Source: Bacillota bacterium
GTDB taxonomy: Bacteria; Bacillota; Dethiobacteria; DTU022
NCBI GenBank assembly: GCA_012799185.1
Contig: JAAZLS010000052.1
Location: 1 to 32,733 of the forward strand
Reading direction: 5' to 3'
Length of the DNA stretch: 32,733 bases
Part shown: piece after piece, positions 1,751 to 15,934 of the stretch
Position numbering within the stretch: position 1 is the first letter of the stretch
Layout of the letters: every line of letters starts with the position of its first letter
Notes under the pieces: model-generated
The model's input: the letters and a program-made list of their open reading frames with translations, nothing else
What the model was told of the DNA's origin: nothing
Database searches by the model: none
Program-made: the position numbers and the translations under genes

Positions 1751-4051
1751 TTAAAAATCAGCCTTCTGCTTTAGCTCTTCATAGAGCCGGGCCGCCTGTT
1801 CCGGTGTAATAATAACCTCCCGGGGTTTACTCCCTTCAAACTGGCCCACCACACCCCGCTGTTCCAGATCATCGATCAGGCGGGCCGCCCGAGTATAGCC
1901 GATCCTAAATCGACGTTGCAACAGTGAAATAGAGGCCTGCCCGCTGCGGGCTACCAGTTCCACCGCCTCTGGAAAGAGCTCATCCATTTCACCCAGTCTC
2001 TCATCAATCTCCGGAGAGATTAAATGTTCCTCGTAATCTGCCTCCCCCTGGTCCCGGATATAGGCGGCAACCCGGCCAATCTCTTTTTCACTGACGTAGG
2101 CTCCCTGAACTCGGAACGGTTTAACCGTGCCCACCGGGTAAAACAGCATATCGCCCCGGCCCAAAAGTTTTTCCGCCCCGGCCATATCCAGGATAGTCCG
2201 GGAATCAACCTGGGAGGAGACGGTAAAGGCAACCCGGGAGGTAATATTGGCCTTAATAATCCCGGTAAGCACATCGACCGAGGGACGCTGGGTAGCAATC
2301 ACCAGGTGAATCCCGGCCGCCCGGGACATCTGGGCCAACCGGGCGATGGCATCCTCCACCTCTCCGGGGGAGACCAACATCAGGTCTGCCAGCTCGTCGA
2401 TAATAATAACCACAAAGGGCAGGGATTCCTCCGGTTCACCCTGCTTCAAACATAGCTCATTATAGGTAAATATATCTCGGACTTTCTCCCGCGCAAAGAG
2501 CTCATACCGCTTCCCCATCTCCCGAACCATGTTCCTTAGTGCCAGAGCCGCCTTCTTAGGTTCGGTAATCACCGGGGATAAAAGCTGGGGAATTCCGTTG
2601 TAAGCGCTAAGCTCTACTACCTTGGGATCAATCATTAAAAAACGTAACTGGTCCGGGTTCGATTTATATAAAAGGCTTAAAATAATCGTATTCAGGCAGA
2701 CACTTTTTCCCGAACCGGTGGCACCGGCGATTAACAGGTGGGGCATTTTAGCCAGGTCGGCTATTACCGGCACACCGGTAATATCCTTACCCAGGCCGAC
2801 GGTTAAAAGCGACGGATGTTCCTGGAAAGAGCTGCTCTCCAGGACATCCCTTAAATAAACCATGGAGATGCGTTTATTGGGCACCTCGATGCCCAGCGCT
2901 GCCTTGCCGGGAATGGGAGCCTCAATTCGCACCAGCGGTGCCGCTAAATTTAGGGCCAGGTCATCGGAAAGACTGACAATCCGGCTGACCTTCACCCCCG
3001 CCTCCGGCTGAACCTCAAACCGGGTCACCGTCGGGCCGGTCTGGGCGTTAATTACCCGGGCATTCACCCCAAAGCTCTGCAAAGTATTTTCAAGTAGCCG
3101 GGCCCGCTCCTTAATATTTTTCAGCTGCTCCCCCCCGGGTAGTCGCCCGCCTTTAGTCAGCAAATCCAGGGATGGGCAACGGTAATCACTGGTACCAGCC
3201 GGGCGCTCGGTTTTTACCCGCTGTTCGCCCCTTTCCCCCTCCGCCGCATCGACCAGGGTTAAACGCCGCTCCGCCTGGTAGACCGGGGGGATGGCGGGCA
3301 CCGCTGCCGGCTCCGAACCAGCCTCTCCAATCTCCTTATCCGAAGGTAGGGCAGGCTCCGACGGAATCGGTACCCGGTAGGGCTCCTCTACCGGCACCTC
3401 CTCAATTTTTTTTTCAGTAAACTCCCCGGCCTCCTCTTCTTCCCCCACCATTAAGATATGATAGATCTCCTTTAAAAATTTCCCCAACCGCACTATTAGC
3501 CTCACCAAAAACAGGAAGACCTGTTTCAACCCACCCCATATTTGGGTTAGGGAAACATTGGTTATCAATAACAGGGAGATAGCCGCCAGGGTCGCTAAAA
3601 CAATTTTGCTTCCCACATCGCGAAAGAAAAAATAGAGGGCCATGGCGACGACCGCCCCCACTACGCCGCCTCCCTGGTGTTCTCTCCCCAGGTTAAAACT
3701 AGCCCGGTAAAAATCCTCCCCGGATAAGGAGCTTACCTCCTCCATCATCACCTGGAAATGGGCGCTAACCATGAATAACAACAGCAATATTAAAACCCCG
3801 GCTAGCCGGCTTTTCAGATGAAAGGTTTTCTGTGGAAGCATCTCCCGGAGGGCATAAAATCCAATTAAAAATGGAATTACTACCGCGGTCTCCCCGGCCA
3901 GGGTCCGTAGAACATTATGGATAAATAGCCCTACCTCCCCGGTCTGCCCCGACTGATGAAGACCAGCATAGCAAAATACTGCCACCGCCAAAAGCAGCAG
4001 GCCTTTAATCTGCGTCCTAATCTCATCTTTAACTTTTGCATGTTTGCTCAC
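1751..4051 (-). CDS. spoIIIE: DNA translocase FtsK/SpoIIIE family
   Basis: N-terminal TM region, Walker [17 protein letters not shown], Walker [15 protein letters not shown]-terminal winged-helix gamma domain; GTG start. Confidence 0.95.
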
Positions 4052-4130: not shown

Positions 4131-4245
4131 TGAGTTTAGGGGATGAGTTTAGGGGACGGAGGCTTTTACTCATCAACACCCCCAGAGTCCAGGGGACGGA
4201 GGCTTTTACTCATCAATGAGTCCAGGGGACGGAGGCTTTTACTCA
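4131..4245 (+). repeat. Repeat cluster A: three 29-bp copies plus one 13-bp truncated copy of TGAGTTTAGGGGACGGAGGCTTTTACTCA
   Basis: Truncated copy 4131-4143; full copies 4144-4172, 4184-4212 (first base A, CC variant), 4217-4245 (CC variant). Ends TGAGT...ACTCA are inverted repeats. Confidence 0.95.
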
Positions 4246-4297
4246 TCAACACCCCCTATCCAACTCCCGAGATAACCCCTTTTAACTTTTACCCTTT

Positions 4298-5086
4298 TTA
4301 CCCTCTAATTAATGTGATTACAATGGTTAATATCCCCAGAGCCCAGCAGTAGTACGAAAAGTAATAAAATTTATTCCCCTTGAGCAGGTTAATAAATAGT
4401 TTTATAGCCAGAATTCCCGCCAAAAAGGCGACTACCCCCCCAACGGTATAGTTTACCAGCATGGCTCTCCCTATACTACCCAGGGCTATATGGCGGGCCT
4501 CCCAAAGGGCGGCCCCGGCGATAACCGGGGTAGAGAGCATAAAAGAGTAGCGGACCGCCGCCTCCGTCTCTAATCCTTTAAAGATAGCACCGGCGATAGT
4601 CAACCCGGAGCGGGAGATACCCGGGATAACGGCTATCCCCTGGGCCAACCCGATAAAGAGCCCATCACCAGGCCCCATGGTATCCAGGTTTTTCCTGCCA
4701 GCCGGCAAAAGAGTGATTAGCTTTAGAATTGTCCCGGTTATCAACAACATAAACCCTACCGCCAGGGTCGATTGGAATAGCCTTTCTATATAATTCGAGA
4801 GCAGCATCCCGATAATGCCGGTCGGTATGCAGCCCAGGAGAAGCAGTATTAAGAATCTTCGCTGCTCTTTATACTTGTAGAACTGAAAAAGTTTTATAAA
4901 TTCATTTCTAAATACATAGAGTACTGCAAACATCGTTGCCACATGTAGCAATACCTCCAGGGTAACCCCTGGCTGCTGTAATCCAAGTAGATCTTTAAAT
5001 ATTACCAGGTGCCCGGAACTACTAACCGGCAAAAATTCGGTCAACCCCTGAACAAGGCCCAGGATAGCCGCCTCCAGGTAGTTCAT
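4298..5086 (-). CDS. uppP: Undecaprenyl-diphosphatase UppP/BacA
   Basis: MNYLEAAILGLVQGLTEFLPVSSSGHLVIF and PGISRSGLTIAGAIFKGL motifs. The ORF track extends to 5104; internal MNYLEAA is the likely start. Confidence 0.95.
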   Translation of the reverse strand: MNYLEAAILGLVQGLTEFLPVSSSGHLVIFKDLLGLQQPGVTLEVLLHVATMFAVLYVFRNEFIKLFQFYKYKEQRRFLILLLLGCIPTGIIGMLLSNYIERLFQSTLAVGFMLLITGTILKLITLLPAGRKNLDTMGPGDGLFIGLAQGIAVIPGISRSGLTIAGAIFKGLETEAAVRYSFMLSTPVIAGAALWEARHIALGSIGRAMLVNYTVGGVVAFLAGILAIKLFINLLKGNKFYYFSYYCWALGILTIVITLIRG

Positions 5087-5138
5087 GAAAACCCTCCCAA
5101 ACATATATATTCCTTAAGATGTTCTTTGTCGGCAGCAA

Positions 5139-15818: not shown

Positions 15819-15934
15819 ATGGCGGGATACCGATGAGTAAAAGCCTCCGTCCCCTAAACTCACGGCGGGATACCGATGAGTAAAAGCCTCCGTCCCCTAA
15901 ACTCATGAGTAAAAGCCTCCGTCCCCTAAACTCA
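15819..15934 (-). repeat. Repeat cluster B: three identical 29-bp copies with a duplicated GGCGGGATACCGA spacer
   Basis: Copies 15834-15862, 15877-15905, 15906-15934; spacer GGCGGGATACCGA at 15821-15833 and 15864-15876. Reverse complement of cluster A copy 1. Confidence 0.95.

Follow-up and report, generated by a model that had tools for sequence, protein, structure and literature searches.

A 29-nt repeat with a conserved loop and covarying ends as a putative REP-like mobile element of TIRYT-kind RAYT transposases in a Bacillota genome

Between two minus-strand genes of a Bacillota contig, ftsK/spoIIIE (1751-4051) and uppP/bacA (4298-5104), lies an intergenic region that harbors a cluster of closely spaced short repeats (cluster A), which raises the question of what kind of element this is and how its copies came to stand next to one another. 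We refer to the whole stretch of DNA analysed, 32,733 nucleotides in length, as the window. A preliminary description, made from the letters of the window, placed 29-bp copies at 4144-4172, 4184-4212 and 4217-4245 and a 13-bp truncated head (TGAGTTTAGGGGA) at 4131-4143, and a check of the sequence finds each of these present. It described the second and third copies as a variant with TT replaced by CC at positions 6-7; the replacement is seen, but the second copy is also changed at position 1 (AGAGTCC...), and it has thus lost its outermost stem pair. The segment TCAACACCCCC follows copies 1 and 3, as had been reported, and TCAA follows copy 2. A second cluster, absent from the earlier account, comprises three minus-strand copies (15834-15862, 15877-15905 and 15906-15934), and the window contains in total six full element copies along with the one 13-bp truncated head. 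Matches to the core number six in the window, against 0.9 expected, and none of 100 shuffles attains six. The window elements sit between co-directional genes. The features of the two clusters are listed below; the covariance-model E-values given here are rough.

4131..4143, plus strand: truncated head, element nucleotides 1-13, joined directly to the next full copy
4144..4172, plus strand: full element of family A (TGAGTTTA GGGGACGG AGGCT TTTACTCA); covariance-model match, E 0.034
4173..4183, plus strand: TCAACACCCCC, 3' flank carried along in the copied unit
4184..4212, plus strand: full-length element of family A, with T1A and TT6-7CC; model match
4213..4216, plus strand: TCAA, shortened copy of the 3' flank
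4217..4245, plus strand: full element of family A, TT6-7CC variant; model match, E 0.006
4246..4256, plus strand: TCAACACCCCC, 3' flank
15906..15934, minus strand: full element opening the second cluster; its bases 1-3 are also the stop codon of a PRC-barrel ORF; model match
15877..15905, minus strand: full element abutting the 15906..15934 copy directly, unit length 29; model match
15863..15876, minus strand: TCGGTATCCCGCCG, 3' flank carried along in the copied unit
15834..15862, minus strand: full element, third copy of the second cluster, unit length 43; model match
15820..15833, minus strand: TCGGTATCCCGCCA, 3' flank

The PRC-barrel ORF (YlmC/YmxH-like; 16171-15932, minus strand) ends in a TGA at 15932-15934 that coincides with element positions 1-3, and the arrival of the element may thus have fixed the end of that gene.

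Element families and anatomy

The source genome holds further copies of the repeat: 17 exact cores, against none for a reversed-pattern control, and 83 matches to the covariance model, all six window copies among them. The copy number is at least 80. Several contigs have an element at their very end or no more than about 170 bp from it (C30:1-29, C30:10266, C91:79449, C4:27923 and C90:4337), so that the assembly perhaps breaks at these repeats, in which case the copy number is a lower bound. The core had been called invariant, and the A that precedes GGGGACGG is indeed constant within the window; however, elsewhere in the genome this position is occupied by A, C, T or G. A looser search groups the copies of the source genome into four stem/loop families, the ends of which differ by family yet remain complementary.

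Family A: TGAGTnnn-GGGGACGG-AGG-CTTTTACTCA
Family B: ends as in family A, with TGA after the core
Family C: GAAGCACC-GGGGACGG-TCC (or GACGT-ACC)-TTTTTGCTTC, the GAAGC family
Family D: about AAGACAC-GGGGACGTTTC-TGTCTT

In the TGAGT..ACTCA elements, a T at position +30 is conserved (81%), and these families may therefore be 30 nt long. Most elements lie outside genes: 12 of 43 are within ORFs of at least 120 aa, while such ORFs make up 0.85 of the sequence (p=8e-17).

The 29 nt of the element comprise an 8-nt arm, a 13-nt loop with the sequence GGGGACGG(N5), and a complementary 8-nt arm (8+13+8). The core had been described as having no internal complementarity, which holds for the loop but not for the element, most members of which form a hairpin with an 8-bp stem, almost unconstrained in sequence, and a 13-nt loop. 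The suggestion that the ends might covary as complementary pairs is strongly borne out, and in a single register. The 108 parsed repeats yield 68 distinct stems of at least five pairs, and the mean helix is 5.86, as compared to 3.65 (sd 0.09) with the arms permuted among loci (permutation maximum 4.03; n=5000). In this register 74% of the cells are paired, as against 34-43% when it is shifted, and the covariation (alignment A2) is 0.650, as against 0.195 after shuffling (0.650 reached in none of 500) and no more than 0.193 with the register slid. In some loci (for example, L202 and L207) the core picked by the automatic parsing is wrong, which adds noise rather than signal. The full-stem form, TGAGTAAA...TTTACTCA, has a folding energy of -4.4 kcal/mol (z -4.4); the inner pairs of the family A copies in the window are broken, leaving five stem pairs and a weak fold on their own (-0.4 kcal/mol).

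RAYT genes and the recognition of the loop

The preliminary description had likened the repeat to dispersed Firmicute elements with a GGGGACGG..CTTT core and variable inverted ends that are sometimes found near genes of REP-associated tyrosine transposases (RAYTs). The source genome has two PF01797 genes, termed here the C30 RAYT and the C44 RAYT after their contigs; with the NCBIfam REP-associated tyrosine transposase model, the protein of the former scores above the cut-off and that of the latter just below. Perfect inverted 29-mers of family C, GAAGCACCGGGGACGTACCTTTTTGCTTC, enclose the C30 RAYT (L034, 85-864), with covariance-model matches at C30:1-29, 893-921 and 927-955. The C44 RAYT (L033, 3547-4305) has two family-B TGAGT...ACTCA copies directly past its stop codon and none upstream. 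A RAYT flanked by the same element is thus present in the genome, on both sides in the case of the C30 RAYT and on the 3' side only in that of the C44 RAYT. Judging by this arrangement, the C30 RAYT is the partner of the GAAGC family. For the TGAGT families of the window, the probable enzyme is the C44 RAYT, given its proximity to such copies and the core of its nearest relative, L142, which has inverted repeats with the rare family A core GACGGAGG and another stem. For family D (L236, L237, L240, L250, L251 and L253), no cognate RAYT was seen in the source assembly.

The predicted fold of the RAYT of a relative (27 sequences) is confident (pLDDT 91) and contains an HUH/Y1 domain; its best match is TnpAREP bound to a REP hairpin (PDB identifier 4er8). 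Helices at residues 193-251 form the C-terminal part of the model, and helix-turn-helix matches are found at the C-terminus. The catalytic residues are intact, with H60, H62 and Y119 invariant in 23 sequences. The proteins have a median length of 257 aa, and their Y motif is mostly YIHQNP or YIHNNP, with YIHLNP in 5 of 92.

The association is not peculiar to the source genome. In 40 relatives, most RAYT genes have inverted flanking repeats of the same core, and the element counts obtained with the covariance model, from the scoring of up to 150 candidates per genome, run from at least 1 to at least 123 per genome. Of 68 RAYT loci in relatives, 42 have at least one element. Inverted repeats with a score of at least 14 are found at 59 of the 76 named loci, which were collected by protein similarity mostly from Firmicutes and in some cases from Actinobacteria and Bacteroidetes, and at 0 of 76 when shuffled; the suggested link to RAYTs is thus supported. 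The spacing of the elements is near-constant: about 40-60 nt separate the upstream element from the start codon of the RAYT gene, and 0-25 nt separate its stop codon from the downstream element. Eight IS200-like loci have one element in all, and not a flanking pair. Of 120 genomes examined from the phylum, 37 carry a RAYT of this clade, and 33 of these have at least three elements, compared with 10 of the 83 in which no such RAYT is detected (Fisher p=2e-16); the elements of these ten RAYT-negative genomes could reflect loss of the gene, a gap in the assembly or another enzyme. Among the related genomes, which are too distant for such a comparison, no empty site, excision product or movement was seen.

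Other arrangements are also seen at RAYT loci. Members of another RAYT subclade (L073, L114, L119 and L122; about 284-324 aa) are bordered by repeats whose GGGGTCAGGTCTTG core agrees with the published motif GGGGWSAS, and at L120 a RAYT-like gene lies between perfect 46-bp inverted repeats of yet another type (AATAAGTGTACGCTTTAAAGCCTGTCCACTTTTCGTACACTTATTT). Long element arrays occupy both sides of the RAYT genes at L210 and L213 (inverted-repeat scores 61 and 79). Loci L222-L227, from genomes G039 and G029, contain inverted element doublets with a constant 9-nt spacer and are REPIN-like, whereas the source genome has mainly direct tandems and singlets.

The two parts of the element differ in how they follow the RAYT protein tree. 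The loop letters track the tree (17 changes, against a shuffled minimum of 25), as do the three letters 3' of the core (26 changes, against a shuffled minimum of 38), whereas stem positions 1-2 are without tree signal (46 and 42 changes, with shuffled means of 47 and 44); positions 3-6 of the stem have some. For example, the RAYTs of L084 and L102 are 76% identical and have the same loop but different stems. Given that tree signal is seen in the loop but not in the outer stem, we infer that recognition by the protein takes place at the loop, and that what counts in the stem is its pairing; on balance, it appears likely that the RAYT requires nothing of the stem other than base pairing. We also considered that the TGAGT/ACTCA ends could act as a guide and a cleavage site instead of a stem, and sequence alone fits either arrangement.

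Tandem layout, a proposed copying route and its rivals

Tandems in the source genome have a sharp left end and a right flank of variable length. For the 106 tandem units collected from 75 loci, the left end coincides with element position 1 to within about 2 nt, whereas the right end can fall anywhere, giving lengths of 8 to 72 nt. The left extension is 0 in 59 units, 1 in 27 and 2 in 14; extensions of 1 and 2 nt exceed chance (about 20 and 5 expected, respectively), and thus the precision of the 5' end is no better than about 2 nt. Identity between units is 0.29 over the 10 nt to the left and, in long units, 0.60 over the carried 3' flank. With complete tandem copies excluded from both counts, there are 49 truncated heads that immediately precede a full copy, as against four truncated tails that immediately follow one, and three of these four share one array. 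The block duplication that had been suggested for cluster A is an instance of a general rule of fixed 5' start and ragged 3' end. Nested insertion was rejected as the source of the truncated heads, since the interrupted copy would then resume after the full copy, and it does not. The layout of the tandems suggests that copying always begins at one fixed end.

We hypothesize that the repeat is, quite probably, a non-autonomous, REP-like and putatively mobile element of a TIRYT-kind RAYT, its hairpin forming as single-stranded DNA; the RAYT, as a single-strand transposase, is the probable copying enzyme. Cleavage by an HUH enzyme produces a 5'-phosphotyrosine together with a free 3'-OH, which can prime synthesis or attack the covalent bond; for the spread of REPs, both have been considered possible (PMC8266576). 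The fixed start and ragged end of the tandems point to a nick 5' of the element followed by variable extension and rejoining. The RAYT would nick the GGGG strand just 5' of element position 1 and hold the 5' end of the element as a phosphotyrosine, while synthesis from the freed 3'-OH of the flank would add n nt, copied from element position 1 onwards. The extended 3'-OH would then attack the phosphotyrosine, giving flank-[1..n]-[whole element], so that an n below 29 would produce truncated heads, an n of 29 perfect tandems and an n above 29 tandems that carry the 3' flank. That some transposase defines the 5' end is quite probable. The exact route of nicking, extension and rejoining, with synthesis stopping anywhere and with heads, perfect tandems and flank-carrying tandems as one product series, is put forward tentatively. 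An equally tentative combination is that RAYTs of this clade work by such a route and that the stem is a freely replaceable scaffold around a loop read by the protein. Positions -8 to -1 and +30 to +40 are nearly free (at most 0.2 bits over 394 elements) and display no conserved target sequence; a fixed target site of the IS608 kind was thus rejected.

Tandem arrays are common, hairpin-capable repeats slip, and the short head repeats resemble products of slippage; all three would be accommodated if the arrays had arisen by ordinary replication slippage at a regulatory or protein-binding site, independently of any transposase. However, slippage offers no reason why 106 units, whose stems are varied and unrelated, should share one start base and yet end anywhere, or why there should be 49 heads as against 4 tails, and it leaves the dispersed copies, the co-occurrence with RAYTs and the inverted flanking unexplained; we consider it unlikely. 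Unlikely, too, is a classical GTAG-footed REP or REPIN, served by an IS200-like RAYT, that merely happens to reside in a Firmicute. The absence of GTAG and CGTC, the nearly free stem-adjacent positions and the conservation of the loop in place of a foot speak against such an origin, although the enzyme superfamily is the same, 4er8 is the best PDB match, the element is a small intergenic hairpin, and the doublets of L222-L227 are inverted with a 9-nt spacer.

An element acting at the RNA level (a terminator, attenuator or mRNA stabiliser) and spread by selection would agree with the predominance of copies outside ORFs and with their position between co-directional genes in the window. Yet a scan of the element against Rfam gave no match and a terminator scan gave no terminator-like site at the elements, and this reading was dropped on account of both. 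In addition, family A folds weakly, copies occur on both strands, several copies have no hairpin or are truncated heads, and the RAYT link would go unexplained. We regard such an origin as very improbable, though an RNA-level role could exist as a secondary use. The ten RAYT-negative genomes with elements would be expected if the repeat were a miniature element of another transposon type (a DDE-type MITE) or of another system altogether, with the RAYTs as bystanders. This is the least probable of the alternatives, as the distances to RAYT genes are near-constant, the core tracks the RAYT tree, and IS200-like loci are without such inverted flanks.

Comparison with known systems

A literature search for the literal core retrieved only unrelated primers. 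The closest described arrangements are those of the TIRtrons/TIRYTs and of the 'atypical' REPs. TIRtrons are RAYT genes located between terminal inverted repeats (TIRs) with the motif GGGGWSAS, as described by Di Nocera et al. 2013 (PMC3733652). The likeness to TIRtrons and TIRYTs extends to a RAYT-type gene between inverted repeats that share a GGGG-motif, and to families, dimers and clusters in some genomes. In contrast, the dominant core here is GGGGACGG, with G as its 7th base, along with GACGT and GACAG variants; the window core fails the GGGGWSAS motif at this 7th base, whereas the variants GGGGACAG and GGGGTCAG of other clades fit it. Since the 7th base is not A and there is no GTAG foot, we place the element as a variant of the TIRYT kind rather than as a plain member. 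The repeats are treated as TIRs in PMC3733652, the accessible text of which does not describe a fixed-register stem, a split between loop and stem or a fixed-start rule.

Most TIRtron proteins were assigned by Quentin et al. 2018 (PMC6006769) to TnpAY1 subclass 2.1, which equals RAYT group 1; automatic and manual searches in that study found no REP-like sequences beside these genes, and further analysis was called for. The RAYTs considered here resemble subclass 2.1 in protein length (median 257 aa here), in the motif NH[V/I]H, in FQ replacing W, and in the C-terminal helix-turn-helix, but differ in that REP-like repeats do adjoin their genes. The Y motif, YIELNP or Y[IV]HLNP in subclass 2.1, is here mostly YIH[QN]NP, as listed for subclass 2.6, with YIHLNP in the 5 of 92 noted above. 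The accessible text of PMC6006769 reports 'atypical secondary structures' beside the genes of subclass 2.6, and the likeness to it, on the strength of that text, lies in this Y motif and in weak, non-GTAG structures by the gene with copies in the genome. However, subclass 2.6 comes from Bacteroidetes, and its proteins carry WQ and have a shorter median length (179 aa).

With the REP/REPIN systems (E. coli TnpAREP, PDB identifier 4er8; Bertels and Rainey 2011, PMC3116915), the element has in common that it is a small intergenic hairpin, with a RAYT in trans and, in some relatives, with inverted doublets; unlike REPs, it has no GTAG foot, its loop is the conserved part, and it occurs mainly in direct tandems with truncated heads. 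The IS200/IS605 family (IS608, ISDra2) has an HUH/Y1 catalytic domain, hairpin ends and cut sites selected by base pairing, to which the present system is similar, but the latter is not an insertion sequence and is distinguished by the extra C-terminal domain, the low gene copy number and the inverted identical ends. As far as the accessible literature shows, the covarying stem of fixed register, the evolutionary split between loop and stem, the wide adjacency to RAYT genes in Firmicutes and the fixed-start rule are new. The RAYT group in question is among the largest and was reported without cognate repeats, whereas the closely similar clade described here has, in most loci, a defined 29-nt candidate substrate with a predicted recognition part (the loop), a predicted scaffold (the stem) and a predicted cleavage point. 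The rule of fixed start and ragged end would be a trace of element copying, a step that is hard to observe for REPs, and a poorly understood group of enzymes thereby gains a DNA substrate that is testable with purified enzyme and oligonucleotides.
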